In this document: positions 10,369 to 49,644 of the stretch, piece by piece | Position numbering within the stretch: position 1 is the stretch's first letter | Layout of the letters: each line of letters starts with the position of its first letter | Made by a program: the position numbers and the translations under genes | The notes under the pieces: model-generated | The model's database searches: none | What the model was told of the DNA's origin: nothing | The model's input: only the letters and a program-made list of their open reading frames with translations | Assembly: GCA_021414115.1 (NCBI GenBank) | Contig: JAIOPD010000090.1 | Span: 1-53,113, forward strand | Length of the DNA stretch: 53,113 nt | From: Planctomycetia bacterium | GTDB taxonomy: Bacteria > Planctomycetota > Planctomycetia > Pirellulales > UBA1268 | Reading direction: 5' to 3'

Positions 10369-10405
10369 CGACGGCTCGCACGAGGGAATGGCCGATCATC
10401 CGCCC

Positions 10406-10513
10406 GGGAAGCCCGGAGCGCAAGCGACGGGTAGACGGGTGGCGACCTTGGTCGTGCCGCGGAGCCGGGAGAGGTGGAGGACGTATTCCCCGCGCTCGCG
10501 CTTGGGGCTTCCC
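10406..10513 (+). repeat. Dispersed palindromic-ended repeat, copy 1
   Basis: A ~108-bp unit starts GGGAAGCCCGGAGCGCAAGCG and ends in its near inverse CGCTCGCGCTTGGGGCTTCCC. Its interior has 'GGGTAGACGGGTGGC' and 'GTGGAGGACGTATTCCCCGCG', shared with the copies at 17043-17152 and 18791-18902. It lies between the converging 3' ends of dapB and the ferritin gene, where it could fold and end or protect transcripts. Confidence 0.8.
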
Positions 10514-10554
10514 GGCCAAAAGCGATTCACCCCCGGCGAACCGATCCGGCCTGA

Positions 10555-12127: not shown

Positions 12128-13714
12128 TCACTCGCTCGGGCCGGCCAGCGCGACCTCGCTGGTGACCTTGTCGAGATACTGGCGGAAGTTGTGGGCGAAG
12201 AGCCCCGCGAGCTTGCGGGCCGTCACGTCGTAGGCCACCTTGTCGGCCCAGGCGTCGCGGGGCACGAGCACGTCGGCGGGCACGCCCGGACAGGAGGTGA
12301 TCGCATCGAGGCTGAACACGGCATCGGCCGCGGTCGGCGGCTTTTGCAGGGCACCCGAGTGGATCGCGTCGATGATCCCCCGGGTGATCGACAGCTTCAT
12401 CCGTTTGCCGATTCCGTAGGAGCCGCCGCTCCAGCCGGTGTTGACGAGCCAAACGTTCACCTTGTGCTCGTGGATTTTTTCGGCGAGCAGCTCGGCGTAT
12501 TTCATCGGATGCCAGACGAGGAAGGGGCCGCCGAAACAGGGTGAAAACGTCGCTTGCGGCTCCGTGATCCCCATTTCGGTGCCCGCCACCTTCGCCGTGT
12601 AGCCGCTGATGAAGTGATACATCGCCTGCGCTGGCGAGAGCCGGCTGACCGGCGGCAGCACTCCGAAGGCGTCGCACGTCAGGAAGATGACGTCGGTGGG
12701 ATGTCCCGCCACGCACGGGATCTTGGCGTTGCGGATGAAGTCGATCGGGTAGGCCCCGCGGGTGTTCTGCGTGATGCTCGTGTCGTGGAAGTCGACGTGG
12801 TGCGACTCCTCGTCGTAGACCACGTTTTCGAGCACGGCGCCGAACCGCAGTGCCTGGAAGATGTCGGGCTCGGTTTCGGGGGCGAGGTCGATCGCCTTCG
12901 CGTAGCAGCCCCCCTCGATGTTGAAGATGCCCGTGTCGCTCCAGCAGTGCTCGTCGTCGCCGATCAGGAGTCGCTTGGGGTCGGCCGAGAGCGTCGTCTT
13001 GCCAGTGCCGGAAAGACCGAACAAGAGCGACGATGAGCCGGTATCTCGGTCGGCAGTCGCCGAGCAGTGCATCGAGAGGATGTTCCGTTTGGGGGCGAAG
13101 TAGTTGAGCATGGTGAACACGCCCTTCTTCATCTCGCCGGCATACTCGGTGCCGAGGATCACCATCTCCTTCGACTCGAGCGAGAGATCGATGCTGGTCT
13201 TCGACGTCATCCCATGGGTCCGCCGGTTGGCCGGAAAACGGCCGGCGTTGTAGATCACGGCGTCGGGCTCGCCGAAGTCGGCCAGTTCCTCCTTCGTGGG
13301 GCGGATCAGCATCGTGTGCATGAAGAGCGCGTGGTAGGGCCGCGAACAGATCACGCGAACCTTCAGCCGATGCTGCGGGTCCCAGCCAGCGTAGGCATCG
13401 ACGCAGTAGAGAAACTCACGGGTGTTGAGATAGTCCTTGGCCCGCTCGAGATTGATCTGGAAGGTCTCGTCGTCGATCGGCAGGTTGACGCTCCCCCACC
13501 AGACGTCGTGCTCCGACGCCGGGTCGCGGACGATCCGCTTGTCTTTCGGCGAGCGGCCGGTCTTGTCGCCGGAGTAGGCGATCAGGGCGCCCGAGTCGGC
13601 GATCGCGCTGCGGGCATCGATGCGGATGGCCTCCGCGTAGAGTTCGGCGGGAGCAAGGTTGCGGCGAACGTCGGCGACGGTGATGCCGTGTCGGGAAAGG
13701 TCCAGGGATCGCAT
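12128..13714 (-). CDS. pckA: Phosphoenolpyruvate carboxykinase (ATP)
   Basis: The 528-residue cytoplasmic enzyme makes phosphoenolpyruvate from oxaloacetate and ATP, the entry step of gluconeogenesis. The P-loop 'GLSGTGKTT' is at about 233-241. The metal-binding Asp253-Asp254 lie in '[12 protein letters not shown]'. 'RSPKDKRIV' and '[12 protein letters not shown]' are typical of the ATP-dependent type. I chose the start at 13714; the longer frame to 13825 would run into the riboswitch promoter region. The gene diverges from gcvP. The length fits the family (E. coli 540). Confidence 0.96.
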
Positions 13715-13827: not shown

Positions 13828-13989
13828 GTCAGGAGAGAGTCGCAAGACCGCCGAAGGCCGAACGCTCAGGCAAAAGTACTGACGACATTCACTGTTGGAG
13901 AGCGACCCGGCCGTTTGCGGCCGCGTCCACCGAAGGGGCAACCCGCGGGCTTTCGCCCGCGGCGAATCTCTCAGGTTCCAGGACAACAG
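13828..13989 (+). ncRNA. Tandem glycine riboswitch
   Basis: Two glycine aptamers lie side by side. Aptamer 1 (13828-13883) is closed by GTCAG/CTGAC and contains 'GGAGAGAGTCGC', 'CGCCGAAGGCCGAA' and 'CGCTCAGGCAAAAG'. Aptamer 2 (13892-13989) is closed by CTGTTG/CAACAG and contains 'GGAGAGCGACC', 'CACCGAAGGGGCAA' and 'TCTCTCAGGTTCCAGGAC', with a strong GC hairpin as its variable arm. The linker is 8 bases. Tandem glycine aptamers normally turn on glycine-cleavage genes at high glycine. The gcvP ribosome site follows 38 bases later. No terminator with a U-tract is visible, so translational control is more likely. Confidence 0.93.
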
Positions 13990-14039
13990 GGTTCCGCGAT
14001 GTGGCTTCGCGCCTCCATCGCGATTCGAGGAGCCCTGCC

Positions 14040-16985
<2,946 letters not shown>

Positions 16986-17042
16986 AGCGGGTCCAACGGG
17001 GGGCCTCGCGGGTTCGATGTTCCCGTGCCGTGCTTCTCCGTC

Positions 17043-17152
17043 AGGAAGCCCCAAGCGCGATCGCGTGGTATGCGTCCTCCATCTCATTCCGCTCCGCACC
17101 ACCCTCACGGCAGCCACCCGTCTACCCGTCGCTCGCGCTCCGGGCTTCCCGA
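17043..17152 (-). repeat. Dispersed palindromic-ended repeat, copy 2 (inverted)
   Basis: It begins AGGAAGCCCCAAGCGCGATCG and ends GTCGCTCGCGCTCCGGGCTTCCC. Its interior 'GCCACCCGTCTACCC' is the inverse of the interior of copies 1 and 3, so it lies in the opposite orientation. It is just beyond the gcvP 3' end. Confidence 0.8.
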
Positions 17153-17194
17153 GCACTCGACGCCATGGCCCGTGGATCGCCGTGCTTCTCTGTC

Positions 17195-17225
17195 AGGAAG
17201 CCCCAAGCGCGAGCGCGGGGTATAC
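17195..17225 (-). repeat. Half copy of the dispersed repeat
   Basis: AGGAAGCCCCAAGCGCGAGCG followed by CGGGGTAT matches the left end of copy 2 and then diverges. The preceding bases (CCGTGCTTCTCTGTC) also match those before copy 2, so the half copy and its flank were duplicated together. Confidence 0.75.
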
Positions 17226-17316
17226 TGGGTGCACTGAAGCGGTGCCGGAATCCCGCACGTGTCGTGGTCCTAAACCGTACGAATTCCACCGGCTCTCATG
17301 CGTTTCCGCGTCGCGA

Positions 17317-18618: not shown

Positions 18619-18790
18619 AAGCGGTCTTACCGCTCGAGTGAAAAGCCGACTGCGGCCGGGTGTCACGGGAGAGCACTTCAGTCAAAGGCACCTGATGCGC
18701 TCATGTCTCTATCGTGAGGATCCGCGGGTGGCACGTGCAGAAATCGGGAAAACTCGGCCTGGCGATCAGCGAGCCGTGGCATCGGGTGCT

Positions 18791-18902
18791 CAGGAAGCCC
18801 GGAGCGCGAGCGACGGGTATCCGGGTGGCAGAGCGTGAGGGTGCCGCGGAACGAGGCGGGGTGGAGGGCGTATTCCCCGCGCTCGCCCTCGGGGCTTCCT
18901 GA
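18791..18902 (+). repeat. Dispersed palindromic-ended repeat, copy 3
   Basis: It begins CAGGAAGCCCGGAGCGCGAGCG, has 'GGGTATCCGGGTGGC' and 'GTGGAGGGCGTATTCCCCGCG' inside, and ends CTCGGGGCTTCCTG. The orientation is as copy 1. It lies about 170 bp beyond the XylR-type gene's stop. Confidence 0.8.
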
Positions 18903-19447
18903 CCGAAAGTATGTCACCGCACGTGAACCGTTGCGCACCGCGATTGAGACCCGAGCCGCAGCGATGCAGAAAGGATACGGCGTCCAGACGCGGCGGGGCG
19001 GAGATCGCTGCATCGCCGTGATGGTGTTCGACCGCCGCTTCGCCAAGGAATCGTTCGATTTCGGCGAGGAAGATCGGCGTGGGCGGCAGGACGGTGCGGG
19101 CCGCGATACGGCCCCATTTTGCCTTGCTCGACGATCATCTCGCCGCGCCGGATGCACCCCTCCAGCCGTCATGTCGACGATCAAGTCGGGGACGACCGGC
19201 TGTTGTGGAGACCGTGCGGCATCGCGCGATTAACCGTCACGTCAGCGGTATGCGGCGCGACCGGCGGTTCGACAATCGAGGAGACGATTCAGGGACAGTG
19301 CGCTCCACCGCCCTCGATCCTCAACCTGCCGCCCCTTTCAGTCGCCATGGCGGGTCTTTCAGTCCGTGCGAACCGCCCGGCGTTTCGTGGTTCACCGCCT
19401 TTCCCCCGGTAACAGAAATCTGTCACACTGTCAGCGTTTCCGGTGCC
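18903..19447. other. Unassigned region, possibly a decayed gene
   Basis: No intact gene is convincing here. On the minus strand, two adjacent frames give protein-like stretches ('IRRGEMIVEQGKMGPY' near 19100-19150 and 'PIFLAEIERFLGEAAVEHHH' near 19020-19080) that would need a frameshift to join. No family is recognised. The right end (19340-19447) should hold the promoter of the hydrolase gene. I see no clear promoter boxes. Confidence 0.35.
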
Positions 19448-30016: not shown

Positions 30017-31078
30017 CTACGGCCACAATACCTTCTCGTCTGCAATACGCGTAAGACTCTGTAAGACCGTGAGGCCGGTCTCTTGCGAGAAGAAATGAGT
30101 AGCGCCATCAGCTGTGACAAAATGACATCCACCGGGGTGCATGCTGGCGGCAGCCTCACGCCATCTCGCAACCATGCCGAAGCGATCACCTGCAGCAACG
30201 GCTGTGTCGGTAGTCCAAAGATTCACGCCCCTTACGGGATCCACGCCTGCCATAAGATTTGCCCGCATGCCCCACGCTACTCCTCTGCCGATGCGGTGGA
30301 ATCGCGTGGTTTCGCCGAGCGCAAACGTGTTGCTCAATCCGTCCAAAACATGGCCGGGCGTTGTCATGCTGTTTTGGCCGAACATACGCCTGTCCGCGCG
30401 GGCCGTTTTCCAACTATTGCATACGTCTGCCTCGCCGTCGGTCCAACTATTTCCGATGAAGTCGTAGTTCGTCGCGGCAACGCCATCCGTTGCCATGCCG
30501 GTGGAGCCGTATGCGCCGGTAAGAAGTTCCTGCTTCGTGTCGGAACCACACCGAAAAATACTGAGTTTAATGCTAGCAATCGCAGCATTCTGGCTAGGGC
30601 TTCCCACAATTGTGCCTGTAGTATTCGTCCAGAGAGGCCTTGCAGAACTGCTTCCGTATGCCATGTCGCTGAACGCAACGTTGTGATCGAACTTATCGAA
30701 CACAGATTGCTGATCTAGGAAGGGCAGTAGCTCGACAAGTCCATTCGAGTTGTAGACCTTGGCATCTCCGTTATTTCGAGGGTCCCCAGAAGTGCCCGAG
30801 GAGCACCAGGAATACCCTCTGCCGGCAGGCGGGAATCTCCCGTCTCGTGCCTGGTAACCGCTGAGAGCGGTTCCGATTTGCTTGAGGTTGTTTGCGCAGG
30901 CTGATCGTCGGCCGGATTCGCGCACCGATTGCACAGCCGGCAGCAGCATGCCTGCCAGGATGCCGATGATCGCGATCACCACCAAGACTTCGACCAGCGT
31001 CAAGCCACGGTGTTGCTGAAAGTCGGATCTCGGATGTCCGCCCCAGCCACATTCACAGCGTTGTATCGCCTTACCCAT
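30017..31078 (-). CDS. DUF1559 (SBP_bac_10) prepilin-like protein
   Basis: The 353-residue product has a type IV prepilin N-terminus ('GLTLVEVLVVIAIIGILAGM', conserved Glu five residues after the cleavage Gly) and the DUF1559 core: 'ANNLKQIGTALSGYQ', 'FPPAGRGYSW' and a late 'HPGGCHFVTADGATHFF'. This family is expanded in planctomycetes and is thought to form pseudopilus-like surface structures. It is first of the eight-gene leftward array, so it may mark a surface step of substrate capture. It has lower GC than its neighbours. The N-terminal 24 residues before the prepilin motif are unusually long for a leader peptide. Confidence 0.9.
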   Translation of the reverse strand: MGKAIQRCECGWGGHPRSDFQQHRGLTLVEVLVVIAIIGILAGMLLPAVQSVRESGRRSACANNLKQIGTALSGYQARDGRFPPAGRGYSWCSSGTSGDPRNNGDAKVYNSNGLVELLPFLDQQSVFDKFDHNVAFSDMAYGSSSARPLWTNTTGTIVGSPSQNAAIASIKLSIFRCGSDTKQELLTGAYGSTGMATDGVAATNYDFIGNSWTDGEADVCNSWKTARADRRMFGQNSMTTPGHVLDGLSNTFALGETTRFHRIGRGVAWGMRANLMAGVDPVRGVNLWTTDTAVAAGDRFGMVARWREAAASMHPGGCHFVTADGATHFFSQETGLTVLQSLTRIADEKVLWP

Positions 31079-31128
31079 AGCCCGATCTTAGCCGTCGAGA
31101 AGCAGGGTCGGGAAGCGACGAGCAGCCT

Positions 31129-31147
31129 GAAAATGTTTCATATTTTC
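31129..31147. promoter_or_regulatory. AT-rich inverted repeat upstream of the DUF1559 gene
   Basis: GAAAAT and ATTTTC form a perfect six-base inverted repeat with a seven-base spacer, 51 bp upstream of the DUF1559 start, in an AT-rich pocket. It is the likely promoter/operator area of the array. No convincing -35/-10 pair was picked. Confidence 0.3.
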
Positions 31148-31217
31148 CGGCGCGGATTCACTTTTTCGTCGGCGTATTCGCGGTGTTTGCGATGAGCGGC
31201 CCCAAACTGGCGGCCGC

Positions 31218-32651
31218 CTATCGCAGCAGTTCCAGCGCGGCCGACGTCATCGCCACCACGCCCGTTTCCAGCGTCGGCTCGGCATCGGGATAGAAGAGCG
31301 GCGAGTGGAGCGACGGCGGCGTCTGGCCGAGATCGCGATACTTTTTGAGCCTTGCGGCCGTCACCGTACCCAGGCGAAACATCAGAACGGGCACGCCCGC
31401 CCGGCCGTATCGGCTGAAGTCCTCGGCCCCCATCGACTGTTCGGCGGGAACGACCCTGGCGCCGCCGAACACCCCCCGAAATACGTCCTCCACCCGGGCC
31501 GTCAGACGGGCATCATTCTCGAGTGCCGGCGTACCTGTGCCCACGGTGATGGTTGGCTCGGGAGCCTTGGCGCCGGCGGCGATGGCTTTCGCCTTTCGCT
31601 CGATGCCGCGCAACAGCAGTTCGCGGACATTGTCGCTGTAACTGCGCACGGTGGCCTGCAGGTGGCAGGAGTCGCCGATGATGTTGTGCTTCGTGCCACC
31701 ATGGATGGCGCCGACGGTGATCACGGCCGGCTCGGTTGGCGGCACCTCGCGGCTGACGAGGGTTTGTAGCGCGAGAACGAGTTCGGCGGCCTGCACGATC
31801 GGGTCGACCGTCGTGTGCGGATAAGCGCCGTGTCCGCCCCGGCCGCGGACGGTGATGTCGACGGTGTCGCTGTTGGCCAGCGTGAAGCCGGCCCGGATTC
31901 CCACCTGGCCCGCGGCCAGCGAGGCATCGCAGTGCTCAGCCAGCGCGAAATCGGGCTTGGGGAATCGCTTGAAGAGGCCGTCGTCGAGCATCGCCTGGGC
32001 GCCGACGAGCGTCTCCTCCGCCGGCTGGCCGATGAGCAGCACAGTGCCATGCCAGAGATCCTTGTGCCCGGCGAGAAACCGGGCCACGCCCACGAGCGTC
32101 GTCATGTGAATGTCGTGCCCGCAGGCATGCATCACGCCGACCTCCGAGCCGCTCGCATCCTTCACCTTCATCTGGGAGGCGTATGCGAGCCCGGTCTGCT
32201 CCGTGACCGGCAGGCCGTCGAGATCGGTCCGCAGCATGACGGTGGGCCCTGCCCCGTTGCGGAGCAGCGCGACGACGCCATGTCCGCCCACGCTTTCCGT
32301 CACTTCCCAGCCGGCTTCCCTCCAGAGCGCGGCGAGCCGCGCGGCGGTGTTCTCTTCCTGCTGCGACAACTCCGGATGGGCGTGGAAGCCGCGGTAGATT
32401 TCGGCGAGCGCCGGCAGTTCGCCCCGGGCCCAGGCCCGGACGGTCTCGTCGGTGCCCGCAGGCCGCGACTCGGCCGCGAAACCGCGAGCCTGGAGGCATA
32501 GAGCCACGACGAGGATTGCGACCAGACGGATCCACGCGGAAAGATCGGCTTGGCCGGGTGAGCGAAGCGTGTCAGGGATGGCACTCAAGGCTTCACCTCT
32601 GCTCAGGGGTTCTTGGCAACGCGGGCTGCTGGCAACGATGGCGGATGGCAC
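31218..32651 (-). CDS. Exported M20 family amidohydrolase/peptidase
   Basis: The 477-residue protein has an N-terminal hydrophobic signal (about residues 40-58, 'LVAILVVALCLQARGFAA') and the M20D amidohydrolase core. 'VMLRTDLDGLPV', 'MHACGHDIHM', 'GQPAEETLVGA' and 'MGAEDFSRYG' carry the metal ligands. 'GRGGHGAYPHTTVDP' is the dimerisation-domain motif. The family hydrolyses N-acyl amino acids or similar amides. It lies 18 bp after the MFS transporter gene, so the pair probably imports and processes one substrate. The true start may be downstream of 32651, as the first 35 residues are unusual for a signal peptide. Confidence 0.85.
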   Translation of the reverse strand: MPSAIVASSPRCQEPLSRGEALSAIPDTLRSPGQADLSAWIRLVAILVVALCLQARGFAAESRPAGTDETVRAWARGELPALAEIYRGFHAHPELSQQEENTAARLAALWREAGWEVTESVGGHGVVALLRNGAGPTVMLRTDLDGLPVTEQTGLAYASQMKVKDASGSEVGVMHACGHDIHMTTLVGVARFLAGHKDLWHGTVLLIGQPAEETLVGAQAMLDDGLFKRFPKPDFALAEHCDASLAAGQVGIRAGFTLANSDTVDITVRGRGGHGAYPHTTVDPIVQAAELVLALQTLVSREVPPTEPAVITVGAIHGGTKHNIIGDSCHLQATVRSYSDNVRELLLRGIERKAKAIAAGAKAPEPTITVGTGTPALENDARLTARVEDVFRGVFGGARVVPAEQSMGAEDFSRYGRAGVPVLMFRLGTVTAARLKKYRDLGQTPPSLHSPLFYPDAEPTLETGVVAMTSAALELLR

Positions 32652-32669
32652 GAGGCGTTGCTCGGCCGC

Positions 32670-34055
32670 TCACTCCGGCAGCGGTCGCCCCTTGGTTTCC
32701 GGCAGCAACGCGATGGCGACCAGACCGAGGAGAAACACGACGCTCATGGCCGAGCAGGCGGTGCGAAACGCAATCAGCTTGGCCTCCGGCGTCGTGGCCG
32801 TGGCCTTGAGCGCCGCCTGGAGGCTGCCCATCGTGAACGGGCCCGTGGCGGCGATGAACCGGCCGACGTTGTAGCAGAAGCTCGTGCCGGTGCTTCGCAG
32901 GCTGGTGGGAAAGAGTTCCGGCAGGTAGATCGCGAAGCCACCGAAGATCGCGACCTGGCAGGCGCCCATCACGGCGCTCATCCAGATGTCGCCGCGGCCG
33001 TTGAAAAACTGGAAGAATCCGGCCGTGGCCAGAAACGCCGCCACGAAGGCCATGGCGAAGGCCGGCCGGCGGCCGATCCGCTGGCAGATGCTCGTGAAAT
33101 AGAGTGCCCCCGCCATGGCGCCGATGTTCTGCACGATGGAGTTCACCCCGATCCAAAACGTCTTGCCGCCGGCGATCTGGTCTTCCGACATGCCCTCCGC
33201 CGCGAGCGACCGGGCCATCACGTCACCGACCAGTTCGGGGCTGAAGAAGCCGATGCTCCAGAGCCCAACGACCGCCGAGGCGCACATCAGCATGCCGAGG
33301 AATGCCCGGCCACGCCACCGTGGGTTGCCAAGCAGTTCGGCATAGGATCCGGCCTTTACACCACTGGCCCGGCTGGCCTCGCGGGCGCGGACCCACTTCT
33401 CGGGTTCCTTGAGCCGCATTTGGATGAACACGCAGAGGAACGCCGGGATCGCGCCGACCAGGAACATGTATTTCCAGGCCGTGCCTGGCACGATCGCCCC
33501 GGTACCCTCCAGGTGGCCGAGATACATGCTGACGATTCCCGCCGTGATGTTGCCGATGCCGGAGAGCGCCTGAAGCAGGCCCAGGGCGCTCGTTCTCGCG
33601 GAGTCCGGCAGCGTGTCGGCCACGAGCGCCACGGCGAGGCCGAAGACGCCGCCCACGCCGAGGCCCGTGAGAAAGCGAAACAGCGCAAAGTCGAGCCAGC
33701 CTTGGGAAAATGCCGAAAGACCGGTGCAGACGGAATAGATGAGCACGGTGATGGTGAGCATCCGTGCGCGGCCATGCCGGTCGCCCAGGGCGCCGAAGAT
33801 CAGGCCGCCCGTCGCCCAGCCCAGAATAAAAATGCTCGTGGCATAGCCGGCGTAGGTGATCGGATCCGTGCCCGGCGGCAGGAGGGCCTTCATGGCCGAA
33901 CCGCGGGCCAGCAGGAAGAGCTGCTGATCCAGGCAGTCAAACATCCACGCCATCGAGGCCACGATGAATACCAGCCAATGGTAGGGCGTCATTGCCCGCC
34001 ACCATGGTCCCGAGGAATGGCCGACTTCGCTGGGTGAGGCTTCCTTGCTTGGCAT
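32670..34055 (-). CDS. MFS transporter
   Basis: The 461-residue product has about twelve membrane helices. It carries the MFS loop motif 'GALGDRHGRARML' after the second helix and its second-half counterpart 'CQRIGRRPAFAMA'. 'ETKGRPLPE' at the end is typical of sugar/aromatic-acid porters. I chose the ATG at 34055 because GGAG lies 6 bases upstream; codons farther up belong to the conserved upstream element. It is first in the operon with the M20 gene. Substrate unknown, possibly a sugar acid or acyl compound. Confidence 0.87.
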   Translation of the reverse strand: MPSKEASPSEVGHSSGPWWRAMTPYHWLVFIVASMAWMFDCLDQQLFLLARGSAMKALLPPGTDPITYAGYATSIFILGWATGGLIFGALGDRHGRARMLTITVLIYSVCTGLSAFSQGWLDFALFRFLTGLGVGGVFGLAVALVADTLPDSARTSALGLLQALSGIGNITAGIVSMYLGHLEGTGAIVPGTAWKYMFLVGAIPAFLCVFIQMRLKEPEKWVRAREASRASGVKAGSYAELLGNPRWRGRAFLGMLMCASAVVGLWSIGFFSPELVGDVMARSLAAEGMSEDQIAGGKTFWIGVNSIVQNIGAMAGALYFTSICQRIGRRPAFAMAFVAAFLATAGFFQFFNGRGDIWMSAVMGACQVAIFGGFAIYLPELFPTSLRSTGTSFCYNVGRFIAATGPFTMGSLQAALKATATTPEAKLIAFRTACSAMSVVFLLGLVAIALLPETKGRPLPE

Positions 34056-34100
34056 GCATATCTCCGCTGGATCGTTGCGCGTCTTCACGCGTGTCGGCTG

Positions 34101-34205
34101 CTTCCAAATGGTTGTCCGTCGCTTCGCATCACAGTAACAAATGACGGGCACACCGTTGCCCGATGCGGTGTTCTAAAAACTGAAAGTACTGCCGAAAAAA
34201 GTGCA
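34101..34205 (-). promoter_or_regulatory. Conserved upstream element, copy A (before the MFS operon)
   Basis: About 105 bp ending 46 bp before the MFS start is about 70% identical by eye to 38317-38424. The best-kept blocks, on the plus strand, are ATGGTTGT, CGTCG, GTTGCC, AAAAACTGAAAG and AAAAGTGCA. Position and orientation relative to a leftward gene are the same in both places, so it is probably a shared promoter/operator. Confidence 0.7.
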
Positions 34206-34238
34206 GGCAGGCTGCGGCGGAGCGACGAAGTGCCGCGG

Positions 34239-35663
34239 CTACATCCGGCCCCACTGAGGGATCCATGCAAACAAGAGAATCGCCACCGCTGTGCCCAGCG
34301 CTGGAATCACCACCGTGAGCACGAAGATCGGACCATAGGCCCGCGAGTGGGTCTCCCCGCAGATGTGGTGAATCAACATCACGAGGTAGCCGTTGGCCGG
34401 GAGCGAATCGAGCGATCCCGACGCGATCGCCACAACGCGGTGGAGCGCCCGGGGCGCCACCCCGAGCTGGTCGATATAGATGGGCTTGAGGATCGGCAGG
34501 GCGATCGCCTGTCCACCGGAAGCGGAGCCCGAGATCAAGGCGATGACAGCGACGGCAACCGCCGCTCCGATAAGGGGGTCGCCGGGTATCGACGTGATCA
34601 GGTGAACGATCTGCTGGAACGCCGGCAGATCCTTCATTGCTGCGCCGAAGCCCACGATCGAGGCGGTCGCGCCGATCGCCATCAGGCCGTTGACGAATCC
34701 TTCCCCCACCGGTGTCCAGACGTCCGTCAGTTGCCGATGAAGAAGGACCACGGCCGCGACAACGCCGAGAAAGACCGCCAGGGCCGGATCCTCCGGCACG
34801 GCCGCAAGCACACCCCGCAGCCATTCCGCGGCCGGGCCCAGGGGCTCCAGGATCGCCCCTGCCCGGCGGGCTGCTCCCGGCAGAACGTTCAACCCGAGCA
34901 GCGTGACGACAAGCGGCAGCAGGGCGATGATGGGTGACGGATGCTTTCGCGATACGGCTGGGTCGCCGCCGGCCGCGTCTCGCGGCCGGTCCTCCCAGCG
35001 CTCCCCTCCGTCTACGGCACGGCGTATCTCGCGGTCGAGGTAGGCCTGCCCGGTCACGAACATCAAGACCGCGACGATCAGGCTCACCGGCCAGCCCGCA
35101 CGCGCATCGGTGAGGGGCATCCCGCTGGTGGCATCGACGAGATAGCGAATCGGAATCAGGTTTTGGATCTCGGGCGACCCCGCGGACGTCATCGTGAACG
35201 TGATCGAGCCGAATGCGATCGCCGCCGGGATGAACCGCCGCGGCAGCCCCGCGGTGCGGAAAAGTTGCACCGCGAGCGGATAGACCGAAAACCCGACGAC
35301 AAACAGCGACACGCCTCCATACGTGAGAACCGCAGCCGCGGCCACCACCGCCAGTGCGGCCCGGTGCGGCCCGAGCCAGCGGCCAACGTGCCGGGCGACC
35401 GAGTCGGCAGCCCCCGTCACCTCGTAGAGCCGTCCCAAGGCCGCTCCCAAGGCGAACACGAGATAGAAGTTGCGAACGTAGTCGGCGAAGCCGGCCATGT
35501 AGGGCCCGGTCATCGCGGCCACGGGATCATGACCGCTGGCCGCCACGATCCCGGCCGCGCACAGGGGCGCCACCACGAAGATGCTCCGGCCCCGCACCAC
35601 CAGCGTCATGAGCAGAACGAGACCGCCGAACAGTACCACGAGCGCGGGAATCGAACCGGCCAT
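34239..35663 (-). CDS. GntP-family permease
   Basis: The 474-residue product has about twelve membrane helices and the GntP features 'GSITFTMTSAGSPEIQNLIP' and 'ISGSASGGQAIALPILKP', followed by 'ASGSLDSLPANGYLV'. This family imports gluconate, other aldonates or hydroxy acids with protons. I chose the ATG at 35663 because GAGG lies 5 bases upstream. It is third after the oxidoreductase and alcohol dehydrogenase genes (18 bp gap), suggesting uptake of a sugar acid that those enzymes oxidise. An insert of charged residues near 215-240 links the two halves. Confidence 0.85.
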   Translation of the reverse strand: MAGSIPALVVLFGGLVLLMTLVVRGRSIFVVAPLCAAGIVAASGHDPVAAMTGPYMAGFADYVRNFYLVFALGAALGRLYEVTGAADSVARHVGRWLGPHRAALAVVAAAAVLTYGGVSLFVVGFSVYPLAVQLFRTAGLPRRFIPAAIAFGSITFTMTSAGSPEIQNLIPIRYLVDATSGMPLTDARAGWPVSLIVAVLMFVTGQAYLDREIRRAVDGGERWEDRPRDAAGGDPAVSRKHPSPIIALLPLVVTLLGLNVLPGAARRAGAILEPLGPAAEWLRGVLAAVPEDPALAVFLGVVAAVVLLHRQLTDVWTPVGEGFVNGLMAIGATASIVGFGAAMKDLPAFQQIVHLITSIPGDPLIGAAVAVAVIALISGSASGGQAIALPILKPIYIDQLGVAPRALHRVVAIASGSLDSLPANGYLVMLIHHICGETHSRAYGPIFVLTVVIPALGTAVAILLFAWIPQWGRM

Positions 35664-35681
35664 GAACGCCTCGCGGAAACC

Positions 35682-36812
35682 TTATTGAAAGCGGACGATC
35701 TGCCGAACTGCCTCGCCACGGGCCAGCCTGTCGAATGCCTCGTTGATGTCGCCAAGCCTGACGGTGTCGGTGAAGAGCAGATCCACCGGCAGCCGTCCGC
35801 CTTGATGCATCGCCACGTAGCGGGGAATGTCGCGGCGCGGCACCGCGGACCCCATGTAGGAGCCCTTCACCGTCCGCTCTTCGGTGACGAGCGTCACGGA
35901 CGGCACCGAGAACTGCCGCGAGGGATGAGGCAGCCCGACGGTGACCGTGGTGCCCCCGCGCCGGGTCGCCTCGTAGGCCTGCACGAGCACCCGTTCGATC
36001 CCCGCGCATTCGATCGCCGTATCGGCCCCGCCGCGGGTGAATTCCCTGACGGCAGCCACCGGATCGACGCGGGCGGCATCGACGACATCAGTCGCGCCGC
36101 ACCGCACCGCGAGTTCGAGCTTCGACGCCACGACATCGACGGCCACGATCGGCCCCGCGCCGGCCGCCCGGGCTCCGATGACGGCGGCGAGCCCGACCCC
36201 GCCCAGGCCGAACACGGCCACAGCCGTTCCCGCCTCGACGCGGGCCGTATTGAGCACGGCTCCCACGCCGGTCATGACGGCACAGCCAAACAGGGCGGCG
36301 GTGTGGAGGGGCAGGTCGTCTGGTATCCGCACGAGCGACTCGGCCGCGGCGACCGTATGCCGCGAGAAGGCCGATACGCCCAGATGGTGATGGAGCCGCT
36401 CGCCGCGGGCATTCGTGAACCGCGTGTTTCCCGACAGCAGCGTGCCCGCACTATTGGCCCGTGCGCCGTTCTCACACAGCGCCGCCCGTCCCGTTCCACA
36501 CGGCAGGCAGTGGCCGCACGCGGGCACGAACGCAAACACGACATGATCGCCGACACCAAACCCCGTCGTGCCGGGGCCGAGTTCACGGACCACCCCGGCC
36601 GCCTCGTGCCCCATGACCATCGGCATCACCCGCGGCCGCGTGCCGTCGATGACGGAGAGATCCGAGTGGCAGAGGCCCGCCGCGGCCACTTCGACCAAAA
36701 CCTCGCCCGGCCCCGGGTCGGCGAGATCGACTTCTTCGATCCGCAGCGGCTGCGACCGGGCGTAGGGAGCCGCCGCTCCCATCCCGTACAGGACAGCCGC
36801 CTCGGTTTTCAT
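35682..36812 (-). CDS. Zinc-dependent alcohol dehydrogenase (class III-like)
   Basis: The 376-residue medium-chain dehydrogenase has catalytic zinc ligands Cys48 and His69 with Glu70 ('GLCHSDLSV', 'MGHEAAGVV'). The structural zinc cysteines are 99, 102, 105 and 113 ('ACGHCLPCGTGRAALC'). The Rossmann motif is 'FGLGGVGLAAVIGARAAGA'. The pattern 'ERTVKGSYMGSA' is typical of the FrmA/AdhC-like branch acting on alcohols or hydroxymethyl thiols. It is cytoplasmic. It lies 12 bp after the Gfo/Idh/MocA gene and 18 bp before GntP. Substrate probably a hydroxy acid or sugar alcohol. Confidence 0.88.
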   Translation of the reverse strand: MKTEAAVLYGMGAAAPYARSQPLRIEEVDLADPGPGEVLVEVAAAGLCHSDLSVIDGTRPRVMPMVMGHEAAGVVRELGPGTTGFGVGDHVVFAFVPACGHCLPCGTGRAALCENGARANSAGTLLSGNTRFTNARGERLHHHLGVSAFSRHTVAAAESLVRIPDDLPLHTAALFGCAVMTGVGAVLNTARVEAGTAVAVFGLGGVGLAAVIGARAAGAGPIVAVDVVASKLELAVRCGATDVVDAARVDPVAAVREFTRGGADTAIECAGIERVLVQAYEATRRGGTTVTVGLPHPSRQFSVPSVTLVTEERTVKGSYMGSAVPRRDIPRYVAMHQGGRLPVDLLFTDTVRLGDINEAFDRLARGEAVRQIVRFQ

Positions 36813-36824
36813 GGCATGCCCCTG

Positions 36825-38291
36825 TCAGACGCGAGGCAGCTCGAAACCCTGGCGGTATTCGCGGCTGAACAGCGCGTTGGCGGCCGGATCGCTCGACCGC
36901 TCGGTCTGGGGATCGATCGTGAGCTCCCGGCCGAGCTTGAGCGGCGTCTGCGCGAAGTCGACGTCGTTTTCACTGAGGTGCGCGTCGAAAGACGCGAACG
37001 TCTCGAGCACATGCTTGTCGTCGGCTGCAAGGGTCGGCCGAGTGCCGAGGGGCACGACCTCGCCCAGCGTCCACGAGACGTTGCCGATATGGGCGATCGC
37101 GCTCGAGATATGCCCCTGCTCGATGTCGAGGTGGAGATCGGCCGGATTGCGGCTGCGGACGCCGGTGACGAAGTTGGCGAAATGGAGCTGATCGGTGCCA
37201 CCGGACCACTGGGCCAGTTCGTTGCCCTCGTAGTCGAAGGCGACACCGCTGTTGTATCTCGGAGTGACGACATAGCCATCCGTTCCCCACCAGATGTTGG
37301 CCACGCCCACCTTGCCGGCCTTCCGGGCGATCGTCGGCGGCGTCTTGATCTCGAGTCCGCGCACGTCCGAGATCAGGAGCGCGTCATCCCACTGGAAAAG
37401 CGTGACCTGACTGTTCGCGACATCGCCGTTGTCGCGGTAGCCGAGGCGGCCGCCGATGCTGACGACCCGCTTCGGCAACTCCGACTTGCCCAGACCCCAA
37501 CGGCCCTTGTCGATCTCGTGAGGATTCTGGTTGCCGAGGTCGCCGTTTCCGGTGACATGATCCCAGTGCCAATCGTAATGAAGATTTTTGCGGATCGGCA
37601 CGACCTTCGGGGCGGGGCCGGCCCAGAGGTCGAAGTCAATCCCAGGCGGCAGCGGCGCGGGCGTATCGACGAGTCCGATGCTTTTCCGTCGCTTGAAGCA
37701 GAGGGCATGCGCCACCTTCACGTCGCCGATCTTTCCGCTCCGCACGAAGTCGATCGCCTGCCGCATGCCTGTCATGCTGCGGCTTTGGGCCCCCATCTGA
37801 CAGATGCGGCCGAGTTTGCGGGCCCACTGCGTGATCACGCGGCCCTCCTCGACGTTGTGGCTGCAGGGCTTTTCCACGTAGACGTCCTTGCCGGCCTGCA
37901 TGGCCCAGACCGACATCACCGCATGCCAGTGGTTGGGCGTGGCGATCGAGATGATGTCGATGCTCTTGTCGTCGAGCAGTCGGCGAAAATCCTGTTCGAA
38001 TCGCGGCGGGCGGGGCAGGTCTTTCAGTTGCAGTCGCCGCTTCTCGAATCCTGCCGGATCGCAGTCCGAAAGCGCGACCACCTCGGCGTCGGGATTGGCC
38101 AGCCACTCGCCGACGTGGGTCCCGCCTCTGCCGCTGAGGCCGATCACGGCGACGCGGAGTTTGTCGTTCGGGCCCACGGTCCGCGTCGCTGCCGGCACTG
38201 CGGCCGCGTCATTCGCGCTGCCACCGCGGGCCGCGGCGGCAGCCGCGAGAGCGAGTGCCTGTCCAACGAAGTCACGGCGCGTGAAGTGCAT
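36825..38291 (-). CDS. Tat-exported Gfo/Idh/MocA-family oxidoreductase
   Basis: The 488-residue protein starts 'MHFTRRDFVGQALALAA', a twin-arginine signal. It has 'KLRVAVIGLSGRGGTHVG' (Rossmann), 'YVEKPCSHNVEEG' (EKP motif) and 'WHWDHVTGNGDLGNQNPHEID' in the substrate domain. It is longer than the oxidoreductase at 23873 and only distantly similar. I chose the ATG at 38291; the frame extends to 38408 through the conserved upstream element. It heads the operon with alcohol dehydrogenase and GntP permease. It probably acts periplasmically on a sugar with bound NAD(P). Confidence 0.9.
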   Translation of the reverse strand: MHFTRRDFVGQALALAAAAAARGGSANDAAAVPAATRTVGPNDKLRVAVIGLSGRGGTHVGEWLANPDAEVVALSDCDPAGFEKRRLQLKDLPRPPRFEQDFRRLLDDKSIDIISIATPNHWHAVMSVWAMQAGKDVYVEKPCSHNVEEGRVITQWARKLGRICQMGAQSRSMTGMRQAIDFVRSGKIGDVKVAHALCFKRRKSIGLVDTPAPLPPGIDFDLWAGPAPKVVPIRKNLHYDWHWDHVTGNGDLGNQNPHEIDKGRWGLGKSELPKRVVSIGGRLGYRDNGDVANSQVTLFQWDDALLISDVRGLEIKTPPTIARKAGKVGVANIWWGTDGYVVTPRYNSGVAFDYEGNELAQWSGGTDQLHFANFVTGVRSRNPADLHLDIEQGHISSAIAHIGNVSWTLGEVVPLGTRPTLAADDKHVLETFASFDAHLSENDVDFAQTPLKLGRELTIDPQTERSSDPAANALFSREYRQGFELPRV

Positions 38292-38316
38292 CGACGGTTC
38301 TCCTGCGAAAGAGGTT

Positions 38317-38424
38317 CTTCTGTATGGTTGTACGTCGGTTGGCGTCGCAGTGCCACATGAGGGCGGCACCCAGTTGCCAAAGCGGCCGGCATGAAAAACT
38401 GAAAGCAATGATTCGAAAAGTGCA
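38317..38424 (-). promoter_or_regulatory. Conserved upstream element, copy B (before the oxidoreductase operon)
   Basis: This is the partner of 34101-34205, about 70% identical by eye, ending 26 bp before the oxidoreductase start. It also overlaps the first codons of the truncated SGNH hydrolase on the other strand, so that remnant's left junction lies within it. Confidence 0.7.
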
Positions 38425-38887
38425 ATACGGCTCGGGGCTCGGGGTCAACAACCTGCCCGGCCGCGATCCCCGGCCGCCCGGGCAGAAGCTGGCGATCTGC
38501 GTGCAGGACATGGGCCGTGCCATCGACCTGGCGCTCGAGAAACTGAAGCCCGCAGACGTCATCCTGGTCGCGCCGTGCAGCGTGAACGCGGAACTGATGC
38601 GGCAACCGTGCGAGACGGATGTTCCAACCACGAAGCGACGTGAGCGGAATGTGCAGAAGGGCTACGACATCTGCCAACCGATCCTCGCTCAGCTCGAGAC
38701 GGCATACCGCAAGCTCGCTGCGGAAAAGGGCGTGCGGTTCGTGAGCCTGCTGAACGTGGTGAGCCCCGAAAACCTGCCCGACGGGCTGCACCCGAACGAC
38801 GAGGGCCAGCGGCAGATCGCGGCGGTGATCACGCCGTTTTTGCTCGAAAAAGCGAAGCCCGGAAAGCTCGCGCCGGCGAGACGCTAG
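38408..38887 (+). pseudogene. Truncated SGNH/GDSL hydrolase
   Basis: The 159-residue frame resembles only the C-terminal two thirds of an SGNH hydrolase. The catalytic Asp/His end is clear ('SPENLPDGLHPNDEGQRQIA'), as is the middle ('PADVILVAPCSVNAELM'). The N-terminal 'GDS' block with the nucleophile Ser is missing; the frame instead starts inside the conserved upstream element. It has no signal peptide. It is therefore probably inactive. A remnant left by deletion or rearrangement is the simplest reading. An alpha/beta hydrolase gene follows 9 bp later. Confidence 0.7.
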
Positions 38888-38896
38888 GATCCCTGA

Positions 38897-39940
38897 ATGA
38901 ACCGAAATGAGTTGCGCATCCGCTATCGGTCGTGGGTGGCGCCGGTCATCTGGTTTCTGGCGTGCGTAGGCTCCGCCCACGCATGGCCGCCGGAGGTGGT
39001 GACGGCGACGTTTCGCAGCCCGGCCGATGGATCTGAGCAAAAGACGTTGCTCTACACGCCACCCGGCGATGAGCCGGTGCCGCTGCTCGTCGCGTTTCAC
39101 ACCTGGTCCAACGACTACACGCAGAACGAGTCGCCCTACGCCGAGTGGTGCATCGCCCGCGGCTGGGCGCTGCTGCATCCTGATCTCCGCGGCCCCTCCA
39201 ACCGGCCCGAGGCCGCGGGCTCCGAACTGGCGATCGCGGACCTCCGCGCCGCGATCGCACTGGCCCGGCAATCGCGGGCCATCGATGACCGCCGCATCTA
39301 TGCGGTTGGCGTGTCGGGAGGAGGCATGATGACGCTGCTGGCGGTCGCCCGCATGCCGGAAATCTGGGCCGCCGGCTCCGCCTGGGTGCCCGTCACCGAC
39401 CTCGCGGCCTGGCACGCCGAATCGCGGTCACGCAACAACAAGTATGCGGCCGAGCTCGAATGGATCTGCGGCGGGCCGCCCGGCGGTTCGGTTGACATCG
39501 ACGGCCAGTACGCGGCCCGGTCGGCGGTGGTGCTGCTCGCCAAGGGAAAAATCGACGCGCCGCTCGACATCAATACCGGCATCCACGACGGGCACACTGG
39601 CAGCGTCCCGGTGAGCCATGCGCTCCGTGCATTCAACGCCGTGGCCTCACCGCCAGACAGGATTGCCGACGCCACGATCGCCGACATGGTGAGCAGCAGG
39701 GGCGTGCCGGCAACGCTGCGGTTCTCGGGCACCGACCGGCTCTACGCTGATCGACCCGTCCTCATGCGACGCATCAGCGAGCGCGCGCGGATCACCATCT
39801 TCGACGGTAGCCACGAGATCCTGCACGAGGCGGCGCTTACATGGCTCGAAGCGCAGGCAAAGGGGGCCCCGCCCGTCTGGGATGTCGAGGGCCACTCGCC
39901 TCCCGTGCTCCGGCAGAAGGTCGCGCCATCCGGACGATGA
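38897..39940 (+). CDS. Exported alpha/beta hydrolase (prolyl-oligopeptidase/esterase-like)
   Basis: The 347-residue protein has a signal peptide (about 1-29, ending 'GSAHA'). It then has 'EVVTATFRSPADGSEQKTLLYTPPG', 'LLVAFHTWSNDY' (oxyanion region) and 'IYAVGVSGGGMMTLL' (nucleophile elbow). The late 'RITIFDGSHEILHEAAL' supplies the likely catalytic His. Periplasmic esterase or peptidase activity is expected; the substrate is unknown. It is 9 bp downstream of the truncated SGNH hydrolase on the same strand and converges with the beta-helix/esterase gene, 6 bp apart. Confidence 0.8.
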   Translation: MNRNELRIRYRSWVAPVIWFLACVGSAHAWPPEVVTATFRSPADGSEQKTLLYTPPGDEPVPLLVAFHTWSNDYTQNESPYAEWCIARGWALLHPDLRGPSNRPEAAGSELAIADLRAAIALARQSRAIDDRRIYAVGVSGGGMMTLLAVARMPEIWAAGSAWVPVTDLAAWHAESRSRNNKYAAELEWICGGPPGGSVDIDGQYAARSAVVLLAKGKIDAPLDINTGIHDGHTGSVPVSHALRAFNAVASPPDRIADATIADMVSSRGVPATLRFSGTDRLYADRPVLMRRISERARITIFDGSHEILHEAALTWLEAQAKGAPPVWDVEGHSPPVLRQKVAPSGR

Positions 39941-44966: not shown

Positions 44967-46826
44967 TTGCAGATTCCGGGTCGCCGCTTTTACTTTTTTA
45001 AGAGTCGTGCGTTGACCTCAGTTGCGTTCCATCGAATCGATATCGGATCGAAGCTGCCACCGTTAGCCGCAACTGTCATCGACGCCATCGGCAGGGCCAG
45101 ACTTTGCCTGACGCTCGTCACTGCGGCGATTGGCGTTGGCGGCTGTGTGCAGGAAACCCCGTCCCTGACGCTGCACAGTCTCCACCCGCCTGTGCTCAAA
45201 CCACAGGGGCAGGAGTTTCGGTTTTGGCGGAACGAGACGGTGTTCACACGCACCTATCACGTGGATGGCGGTTCTCCCAAGGCGTCCGATGAGAACCCCG
45301 GCACGCCAGATCTTCCCTTCAAAACCATCAATCGCGCCGCCGCCGTCGTCGCTCCGGGTGAGCGGGTGCTCGTTCACGCAGGCCTCTACCGCGAGTGTAT
45401 CCGCCCCGTGCGGGGTGGCCTCTCGCCCGCGCAGATGGTCGCCTACCAGGCAGAAGGCGAGGTGACCGTCCGGGGCTCCGAACTGGTGGGAAGCAATTGG
45501 ATTTCTCAGGGCGAGGGCGTTTGGGGGCTCGATCTGCAAGCCATGGAATTCGGCGACGACAACCCCTTCGAGTTGGACAACCTGCCGGATGCATCCTTTG
45601 GCATCATGAGCTGGGCAAAGGAGCTTCGCGGCAAGCCTCCTTACACGCTGCCCAGGGGAATGGTCTTCTTGGATGGGCAGCGTCTGCAGCGGGTTGCGAC
45701 CCGTGATGAACTGCTGCGCACGCCCGCCTCGCACTGGACCGATCGCGAGGCGCGCCGGCTCCTCATCCACCTCGGTCCCGGCAAGGATCCCAATCGCCTG
45801 CCATTGGAAATCACCACGCGCGGCAGTTGTTTTCGGCCGCGTGTCCGCGGACTGGGCTTCATCCAGGTCTGCGGCTTTGTCTTCGAGCAGGTGGGCAATG
45901 GATTTCCACGGCCGCAGGAAGGCGCAATCTCCGTCGCTGGCGGGCACCACTGGCTGATCGAGAAAAATACCGTCCGCCAGGTCAATGGCATCGGCATTGA
46001 TATCGGCGACGGCTGGTACGGTGGCGCCGTGCAATCCTCGGAAGAGGGGCTGGGGCGTGCGGGCTGGAATATCGTTCGCTGCAACATCATCACGCAGACC
46101 GGCGTGTGCGGTATCGCGGGCCATCCTGCTCGCGACGCCCTCATCGAAGAGAACCTGCTGAGCGAGAATACGCTCTACGAGATCGGGAACATCTACGAGT
46201 GCGCTGCCATCAAAACGCACCGCAACCGCGGCACGCTCATTCGGCGCAATCTCATCACCAACAACGCCATCAACGGCATCTGGATGGATTGGGATAACCG
46301 CGACACCCGCTGCACCCAGAACGTAGTCGTGAATTGCAACACGGGAATCTTCATCGAGGCCTCCGTCGTCGCCCCGTTCTGCCTGATCGATCGCAATGTC
46401 GTCTGGGGTGCGAAAAACGCGATCGTCGAGCAGGACTCCACAAATCAGCGATTCCTCCACAACCTGGTCGGTCGGTCGGCTGCCGGCATCGTGCTACGCG
46501 GCGAGGTCAGCCAGCGAGTGGTGACGTGGTGGCCCTGGCGCATGACCGCGGGCGGTGGCCATACCATCGCCAACAATGCCTTCGTCGGGGTTGCAGCGCC
46601 GATCAAGCAGTCCCCCAGCCCGGAGCCCAACACGCTCACCGGCAACGCCTCCACAGGCCTCGCCCGCTCCCTGGATCTGGCCAAGTGCATCATGATGTGG
46701 GTCGCCACTCGGCCGCTGGCGGCGCTGTATCCAGAGTGCCTCGTAACAGAGGATTTCAGCGACCGCACCCGGCCGCCGGGATCCGCGAGCGATGCCGGCG
46801 AAGCTCTGCCGAGAGCTGCTCGGTAA
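44967..46826 (+). CDS. Beta-helix protein, probable lipoprotein, with unusual C-terminus
   Basis: The frame has no good ATG: a TTG at 44967 or 45012 is the best start, giving about 604-619 residues. A lipoprotein-like signal is seen ('LTLVTAAIGVGGC'). The mature part is a planctomycetal right-handed beta-helix: 'YHVDGGSPKASDENPGTP', 'PFKTINRAAAVVAPGERVLV', then helix turns such as 'LIRRNLITNNAINGIWMDW'. Such folds often cut or bind polysaccharides. The last ~35 residues look non-homologous, and the 3' end overlaps the converging sulfatase gene by 71 bp, so the C-terminus may be truncated or read-through. Moderately sure. Confidence 0.7.
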   Translation: MQIPGRRFYFFKSRALTSVAFHRIDIGSKLPPLAATVIDAIGRARLCLTLVTAAIGVGGCVQETPSLTLHSLHPPVLKPQGQEFRFWRNETVFTRTYHVDGGSPKASDENPGTPDLPFKTINRAAAVVAPGERVLVHAGLYRECIRPVRGGLSPAQMVAYQAEGEVTVRGSELVGSNWISQGEGVWGLDLQAMEFGDDNPFELDNLPDASFGIMSWAKELRGKPPYTLPRGMVFLDGQRLQRVATRDELLRTPASHWTDREARRLLIHLGPGKDPNRLPLEITTRGSCFRPRVRGLGFIQVCGFVFEQVGNGFPRPQEGAISVAGGHHWLIEKNTVRQVNGIGIDIGDGWYGGAVQSSEEGLGRAGWNIVRCNIITQTGVCGIAGHPARDALIEENLLSENTLYEIGNIYECAAIKTHRNRGTLIRRNLITNNAINGIWMDWDNRDTRCTQNVVVNCNTGIFIEASVVAPFCLIDRNVVWGAKNAIVEQDSTNQRFLHNLVGRSAAGIVLRGEVSQRVVTWWPWRMTAGGGHTIANNAFVGVAAPIKQSPSPEPNTLTGNASTGLARSLDLAKCIMMWVATRPLAALYPECLVTEDFSDRTRPPGSASDAGEALPRAAR

Positions 46827-49644
46827 TCTCGCGGGCCTCGGGGCGATCCGCCAGGTTGACGCGCTCGTCTGAGTCGGACTCGTGGTCGAAAAGCATTCGG
46901 CCGGCCACGACGCCCCGTGGCCCCGAGTACTCCGTGAACCGGTGGCTGTCGGTGCGGATCGTCTCGCCCGCGCGAAAGCGGCCTACGGCCGCGGGCTTAC
47001 CCGGCAGGCCGGGATTGGAGAGCAGCGGCACAAAACTCTCGCCCTCGAGGTGCGGCGGCAGAGGCAGGTCGGCCAGTTCGCAAAGGCTTGGGTAGATGTC
47101 AATGAACTCGACGAGCCCCCGGGCCTTCCCCCCGGCAGGCTTGCCTGGCGCGGCGACGACGAGCGGCGTCTGCATCGAGGTCTCGTAGCAGCAGTGCTTG
47201 CACCACAGCCCGTGCTCGCCGAGGTTCCAGCCGTGGTCGCCCCAGAGCACCACGATCGTGTCGTCGGCGAGGTCGAGCCGGTCGACGGCATCGAGGAGTT
47301 GGCCGATCTGTGCGTCGACGAAACTCACGCACGCGCGGTAGCCATGGATCAGCCGCCGCGCCTGTTCGTCGGTGAGTGGTCCCGCCGCCGGCATGTCGAC
47401 GTAGCGGCGGAGTTCACTCCAGTCAGTGAGGGCCGCCGCCGGGACATCCGTCGGCGTGAGCCGGTGATCGGGAAGCACGATGCGGGCAGGGTCGTAGAGG
47501 TTCCAGAACCGCTGCGGCGCCACGAACGGCAGGTGCGGCTTTTGAAAGCCGACCGCCAGAAAGAACGGTCCCCCGCGGGAAAGCCGCTCGAGTTCCGCGA
47601 CCGCGCGGGTCGCGAGCACGGCGTCGCCGAGGCGTTCATCGGGGCCATCCGCGGCTTCGGTCGCCGGCCCACGCAGCCGCGGGTCGATTTTCCCCCTGGC
47701 GAGATGCGTCTCGAGGTTCGCGGAAACGGTATACGAGGGCAGGTTCGGCCGCCACTCGGGCTCCGACCAGCCTGCCGCCGCGTCTCCGCCCACGTGGAGC
47801 ACCTTGCCGAGCGACACGGTGCGGTAGCCATGGTTGCGGAAGTGTTCGTGGAGCGGCGTCACGTGCGGAGCGTCGCGATCGACCGCGGTGTCATGGGAGA
47901 GAAAACGCAGCGGCGTGGGGCGGATGCCGGTCATGAGACTCGCCCGCGAGGCGCCGCAGACGGGCACCATGCACGACGCCCGCTCGAAGAGCGTGCCCCG
48001 GGCGGCGAGGCGGTCGATGTGCGGCGAGCGGATCTCCGCCTGGCCGTAGCAGCCGAGTTCCGGCCGGAGGTCGTCGACGGCGATGAAGCACACGTTCGGC
48101 TGTCGGGCCGCGGCTGCCACCGCCGCGGGCTTCCGTCGGGCCGGCATCGGCGCGCCGACGCTTTGGCGCCAGGCGGCCAGCCGCACGGCAAGTTTTTCTG
48201 TCAGCGCGGGCTCGGCTTTGGAAATGTCGCGGGCCTCGCCGGGATCGGCAGCGAGGTCGTAGAGTTCGACCGAGCCATCCTCAAACCGCTCGATGAGCTT
48301 GTGGCGACCCACGCGGATCACACCCACCGGCTTCGTCCGCCACTCGTCGCGGGCGGCCCGCTCCACCTCCGCCCCGAGATATCCGGGAAAATGCCAAAAC
48401 AGCGCGCGGTCCAGCGGCTGTCCGCAGCCTTTCGTGAGGAGCGGCCCCAGATCGACGCCGTCGACCGGCTGCTTCGGCAGGGCCACGCCGGCCACCGCCG
48501 CCAGCGTAGGCAGGATGTCGACCGTGATCACGGGCTCTGCACAGGTCGCCCCGGCGCGGATCGACCCGGGCCGGGCCGCGATGAACGGCACCCGGATCCC
48601 GCCCTCGAAGAACGTCGCCTTGCCTCCGCGGAGCGGACGGTTATCGGTGATCTCCGGCCTTGGCAGGCCCTCACGGGCATAGCCGCCAACGCCGCCGTTG
48701 TCGCTCGTGAAGATCACGAGCGTCTCTTCGGCGATGCCTGCCTGCGCGAGCGACGCGACGATCCGGCCCACGCTTTCGTCGAGGCTGGCGATCATCGCGG
48801 CGTAGACCGGGCTCTTCTGGTCGCCGACGGTGGGTTTCTCGGCAAACCGCGCGACGAGCTCGGGCTTGGCCTCGAACGGAGCGTGAACGGCGAAGTGGGG
48901 CAGGTAGAGGAAGAACGGCTCGTCGCGATGCCGCGCGATGAAGTCAACCGCCTTGTCGGTGAGGAAGTCGGCCAGGTAGACGCCGCGGGGCACGTCTACG
49001 GGGGGCACCGTGCGGAAATCGTAGTGGCCTTGCTGCGCGATCCCGCCGACGACGAGAGCCTCGTCAAAGCCGCGTCCGGAAGGATGATCGCGGGTTTCGT
49101 CGAGGTGCCAGTTGCCGAACATCCCCGTGGCGTAACCCGCAGAACGAAGCACGTCGGCGATCGTCGCCGTGCCGGCGGGAAGATGATGCCGATTCTCCAC
49201 GGGCACGAGGGGCCGCCGCGAGGTGTCCCACCGTCGCGTGCTTCCAACCGTGTAGACGCCGGTCCGCGGCGCATATTGGCCGCTCAGCAGCGCGGCCCGC
49301 GTCGGCTGACAGTTGCTCCCGGCCGAGTAGGCATCGGTGAATCGCATGCCGTTCGCGGCGAGCCGGTCAATGTGCGGGGTTTCGTGGTAGCGGTTGCCGT
49401 AGCAGCCGAGGTCGGCCCAGCCGAGGTCGTCGGCGAGGATCACGACGACATTTGGCGGGCGAGCTTCCGCGCCCTCGGTGATTTCACCGGCATCGGAGCG
49501 GAACACGATCTCCCGCGGCACGGGCTGGTGGAGTTTCAGTTCCAGCCGCGAGCCACTGTCGATCGGATCGCCCTTTGCGACCGCGACGGTCGCGAGACCG
49601 GCGAAGATCGCGATGGCGAGGCGACGCACCGTGGCCAGGTTCAT
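46756..49644 (-). CDS. Tandem double sulfatase (two fused sulfatase domains)
   Basis: The 962-residue exported protein (signal about 1-25) contains two sulfatases. Domain 1 (about 64-510) has 'NVVVILADDLGWAD' (Ca ligands Asp72-Asp73) and the formylglycine site Cys112 in 'NCQPTRAALLSG'. Domain 2 (about 525-950) has 'NVCFIAVDDLRPELGCYG', its formylglycine site Cys563 in 'VCGASRASLMTG', and 'FQKPHLPFVAP', as in iduronate-2-sulfatase-like enzymes. An Ala/Arg-rich linker joins them. Both appear active by motif. They should remove sulfate from two positions of one glycan, after Cys oxidation by a maturation enzyme not seen here. It follows the heparinase-like gene by 40 bp. Confidence 0.9.
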   Translation of the reverse strand: MNLATVRRLAIAIFAGLATVAVAKGDPIDSGSRLELKLHQPVPREIVFRSDAGEITEGAEARPPNVVVILADDLGWADLGCYGNRYHETPHIDRLAANGMRFTDAYSAGSNCQPTRAALLSGQYAPRTGVYTVGSTRRWDTSRRPLVPVENRHHLPAGTATIADVLRSAGYATGMFGNWHLDETRDHPSGRGFDEALVVGGIAQQGHYDFRTVPPVDVPRGVYLADFLTDKAVDFIARHRDEPFFLYLPHFAVHAPFEAKPELVARFAEKPTVGDQKSPVYAAMIASLDESVGRIVASLAQAGIAEETLVIFTSDNGGVGGYAREGLPRPEITDNRPLRGGKATFFEGGIRVPFIAARPGSIRAGATCAEPVITVDILPTLAAVAGVALPKQPVDGVDLGPLLTKGCGQPLDRALFWHFPGYLGAEVERAARDEWRTKPVGVIRVGRHKLIERFEDGSVELYDLAADPGEARDISKAEPALTEKLAVRLAAWRQSVGAPMPARRKPAAVAAAARQPNVCFIAVDDLRPELGCYGQAEIRSPHIDRLAARGTLFERASCMVPVCGASRASLMTGIRPTPLRFLSHDTAVDRDAPHVTPLHEHFRNHGYRTVSLGKVLHVGGDAAAGWSEPEWRPNLPSYTVSANLETHLARGKIDPRLRGPATEAADGPDERLGDAVLATRAVAELERLSRGGPFFLAVGFQKPHLPFVAPQRFWNLYDPARIVLPDHRLTPTDVPAAALTDWSELRRYVDMPAAGPLTDEQARRLIHGYRACVSFVDAQIGQLLDAVDRLDLADDTIVVLWGDHGWNLGEHGLWCKHCCYETSMQTPLVVAAPGKPAGGKARGLVEFIDIYPSLCELADLPLPPHLEGESFVPLLSNPGLPGKPAAVGRFRAGETIRTDSHRFTEYSGPRGVVAGRMLFDHESDSDERVNLADRPEAREITEQLSAELRRHRSRIPAAGCGR

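Follow-up and report, generated by a model that had tools for sequence, protein, structure and literature searches.

A 53,113-nucleotide stretch of DNA from a Planctomycetia bacterium (hereafter, the window) contains two adjacent leftward putative operons, each of which is preceded by a copy of the same sequence of about 110 bp. We propose, with a probability of about 0.55, that one of these operons had the stretch carrying its promoter and 5' leader duplicated and that the copies now precede both. The locus is a local duplication of a leader region, which is most likely a shared promoter and possibly just a rearrangement scar.

Results

Two sequences of common origin precede adjacent operons

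Our original prediction, made by eye, was that two segments about 70% identical lie in the same orientation and at similar distances from start codons. When the two segments (Table 1) were aligned on the minus strand, both their coordinates and their orientation proved correct, and 77 of 110 gap-free columns were identical (70.0%), the whole alignment (A2) having 115 columns, including 33 with mismatches and 5 with gaps. The local score of this pair was 79, while the maximum in 3000 dinucleotide-preserving shuffles was 37. Furthermore, when 47 gene-upstream regions from the window and from 14 kb of a second contig in this genome were compared with each other (2162 comparisons, divergent neighbors sharing the same DNA being set aside), the pair ranked top with a score of 81, the next best being 50. 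Since this similarity is far beyond chance, the repeat is real and the two copies have a common origin. Copy 2 also scored 44, above the shuffle maximum of 37, against positions 32958-33017 within the MFS coding sequence (E 0.066 with the R1 model), which we take to be chance. R1 is a sequence-only model made from copies 1 and 2 themselves.

Of the blocks previously described as perfectly kept, the 12-base block AAAAACTGAAAG (minus strand CTTTCAGTTTTT) is exact at 34175-34186 and 38394-38405 and nowhere else in the 4,346,575-base assembly. However, such blocks are not unusual at this level of identity. The longest identical run between the copies is 13 (run-length permutation, p 0.22), and clustering of identity in permutation tests (p 0.22, 0.14, and 0.15) was no greater than 70% identity yields by chance. 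The blocks are therefore no evidence for operators.

The similarity is limited to the leader region, the genes downstream of each copy belonging to different families. Copy 1 begins 33 bp past the GntP stop and ends 41 bp before the MFS start codon, while copy 2 ends 20 bp before the Gfo/Idh start codon, which means that the predicted similarity in distance holds only roughly. Each copy stops just short of a start codon that has a plausible ribosome-binding site. Judging from gene order and spacing, Gfo/Idh-ADH-GntP and MFS-M20 probably are two operons, and because these adjoin, the copies are direct repeats, with 4.2 kb spacing, around the first of them. Both are AT-rich for this genome, with a GC content of 0.50 for copy 1 and 0.53 for copy 2, compared to 0.63 in the non-coding DNA of the window. 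Genes beyond the program-made list of open reading frames were called with an ad hoc script. Further along, the window encodes a large sulfatase at 46756-49644 (-) (Pfam Sulfatase, 9.7e-99).

Table 1. Coordinates of the two repeat copies and of neighboring genes in the window
Feature	Position	Strand	Evidence and remarks
M20-family amidohydrolase	31218..32651	-	Pfam Peptidase_M20 1.1e-29; TIGR01891 above cut-off
MFS transporter, lead gene downstream of copy 1	32670..34055	-	Pfam MFS_1 1.1e-32; ATG at 34055, preceded by GGAG
Copy 1, duplicated leader	34097..34205	-	R1 model 103.1 bits; between GntP stop and MFS start
GntP-family permease, last gene of flanked operon	34239..35663	-	Pfam GntP_permease 1.1e-9; planctomycete relatives with 61-68% identity
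Zinc-binding alcohol dehydrogenase (ADH)	35682..36812	-	Pfam ADH_zinc_N 2.8e-28, ADH_N 1.4e-24
Gfo/Idh/MocA oxidoreductase, lead gene downstream of copy 2	36825..38291	-	Pfam GFO_IDH_MocA 5.8e-18; translation
Copy 2, duplicated leader	38312..38424	-	R1 model 109.9 bits; upstream of Gfo/Idh gene
GDSL/SGNH hydrolase remnant, 5'-truncated	38408..38887	+	PF13472, restricted to positions 70-177 of 178; slightly under curated cut-off

Evidence bearing on a shared promoter

The location of the copies just before two start codons, their matching orientation, and their AT-richness together favor a duplicated promoter and leader. In this scenario, about 110 bp carrying both the promoter and the 5' leader of a single leftward operon would have been copied, and the resulting copies would have come to sit before Gfo/Idh-ADH-GntP and MFS-M20. 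With a related promoter and leader at their starts, the two operons would then tend to be expressed under similar conditions. The candidate promoter would lie within the repeat, and a joint response of both operons is plausible.

As expected for a shared promoter or operator, there is homologous sequence in the same orientation upstream of each unit. In the permutation tests above, no sites stood out from the background divergence, and the R1 model revealed no further sites before other members of a regulon, the genome having two copies only. A scan of 31000-39000 restricted to sigma-70-like promoters found 0, with 0.8 expected. The original prediction of a shared operator/promoter and a small regulon holds for the common ancestry of the copies and their place before two leftward operons. 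The operator and regulon are hypothetical, given that the genome and the relatives searched have no further copies, that the blocks are unclustered, that the scan gave no sigma-70-like promoter, and that the copies could just as well be the footprint of a rearrangement. The unclustered blocks and the sigma-70 result also count against a duplicated promoter, as do the absence of a conserved copy in the other genomes searched and the position of copy 2 beside a gene remnant.

Possible signs of rearrangement around the flanked operon

Alternatively, the copies might be neutral footprints of the rearrangement (duplication or insertion) that brought Gfo/Idh-ADH-GntP, i.e., flanking direct duplications with no common regulatory role, a reading that we consider possible rather than probable. 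It accounts for one operon being flanked by direct repeats, and it is compatible with the unclustered identity between them. In addition, next to copy 2 lies a truncated GDSL hydrolase gene that lacks the first 69 profile positions and whose surviving homology starts near 38438, about 14 bp beyond the copy. Since the outer edge of copy 2 adjoins this 5'-truncated remnant, it looks like a junction, which suggests that a rearrangement may have occurred there. Searches of the other genomes of the family (71, at E 1e-10) and of the order (395, at E 1e-8) found no relatives of the remnant, and none of the other matches in its own genome corresponds to the absent front part alone.

The genes themselves point in the same direction. 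Of the 72 family genomes (own genome included), 68 had no GntP match at E 1e-30, and 4 had one. When 38 GntP loci of named genomes were compared, neither Gfo/Idh nor ADH was found next to GntP (E 1e-20), and the only window protein matched besides GntP, encoded at 12128-13714, was found in three (E 1e-20). The MFS gene is an extra copy: its paralog (77% identity) lies elsewhere in the genome, on contig C100, where the order of genes is like that in the relatives examined; this C100 stretch is without the repeat (R1 search, E up to 5). Against neutral footprints, both copies are oriented alike and directly precede start codons, no intact locus predating the insertion was found for comparison, and there is no transposase among the window proteins scanned, which represent part of its genes. 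We also envisage, as a rather improbable speculation, that a lineage-specific control element was copied as an operon of sugar-acid type inserted beside a transporter operon, the newcomer gaining its neighbor's regulation in one step.

The window displays other duplications, namely an exact 94-bp tandem duplication at 9291-9478 (+), which takes in a gene's stop codon (the gene ends at 9384), and, at the contig end (1-313), a 118-nt direct repeat with 92% identity and a spacing of 195.

Two copies of the repeat were found, in a single genome

The original prediction called for a genome scan for further copies. Using R1, which is blind to a short operator (less than about 20 bp) standing alone, we found two copies and no more in the 4.35 Mb assembly, the next match having an E of 3.04. 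No full-length copy was found in 71 other family genomes, 18 of which showed weak partial matches, or in samples of the order (395 other genomes) and phylum (391 others), which also showed weak partial matches. The order and phylum sets, 396 and 392 genomes with own genome included, overlap. These large searches used strict filters and scored no more than 52 candidates per genome for the family and 9 for the order and phylum, so that strongly diverged copies could escape. Similarly, there was no R1 match at E up to 5 in 30 loci around GntP/MFS relatives, consisting of 22 of the 38 GntP loci above, 2 further GntP loci, and 6 stretches around GntP or MFS relatives (including the own-genome MFS paralog). 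Plasmids showed no match to the repeat, and viral contigs no exact-pattern match. There were at least 20 weak R1 matches in relatives (E 0.006 to 0.77), plus one in own genome; most of those listed coincide with long open frames and span the central part of the model, and we treat them as chance. The order and phylum searches gave four more weak matches (E 0.0057, 0.0062, 0.0092, and 0.0094). In the literature, titles and abstracts yielded nothing on this locus. With exactly two copies in own genome and no full-length copy in the relatives searched, the repeat fits neither a mobile element nor a wider regulon.

The XylR/AraC-type regulator at 17380 had been put forward as a candidate partner, in which case both copies would hold its operators and define a small regulon for one compound. 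It is a genuine protein of this type, with Peripla_BP_3 and HTH_18 domains and a XylR N-terminal domain (Pfam), and the genes after the copies are for transport and oxidation. However, no result ties it to the repeat, which is about 16 kb away and has no copy near the regulator gene or anywhere else in the genome. Moreover, the blocks are unclustered, and no in-register inverted repeat shared by the copies was found (gap-free arms of at least 4 bp, within 45 columns). We therefore regard this regulon as very unlikely.

Even less probable is a mobile or dispersed repeat family. Although both copies are outside genes, the assembly has no third copy and none scattered inside unrelated genes, which is the outcome that such a family would produce, and the family, order, phylum, plasmid, and viral searches gave the same answer. 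Without multiple scattered copies, this possibility was rejected. A dispersed family of intergenic inverted repeats distinct from the leader repeat, with arms of up to 111 nt and 83% complementarity, is present in the window at 10402-10548, 17027-17232, and 18761-18935.

A structured RNA leader (riboswitch-like element) controlling both operons is hardly credible and was rejected since, although RNAalifold predicts 12 pairs, of which two have both partners changed, column-shuffled alignments fold as well (z 0.12; 270 of 500 matched or exceeded the stability of the real one), the copies taken singly have z-scores of -0.20 and -0.45 and differ in their predicted folds, and Rfam has no match at the repeat positions at E up to 5. 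A coding sequence was likewise considered and set aside: stop codons interrupt copy 1 in the matching plus-strand frame, and mismatches by phase in a 47-column block were 8, 3, and 1 (p about 0.056, corrected for three phases). The window does have a glycine riboswitch (Rfam RF00504, 55.2 bits) at 13885-13996 (+), shortly before a gene at 14040 that encodes 981 aa and is a candidate glycine decarboxylase gene.

Discussion

The leader duplication that we favor is an ordinary kind of event, which opens no long-standing question. Should both copies be active promoters, they would show, on a small scale, how leader duplication can rewire regulation in Planctomycetota, a phylum in which few promoters are known to have been mapped. 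Dispersed intergenic repeats of the REP type are likewise non-coding and repeated, whereas here there are two copies only, both just upstream of start codons. When compared to duplicated promoter/leader regions that drive separate operons, as generally known, the present pair differs in being just about 70% identical, in occurring in one genome alone, and in being known from sequence, and resembles them in that the same sequence stands, in the same orientation, before two transcription units.
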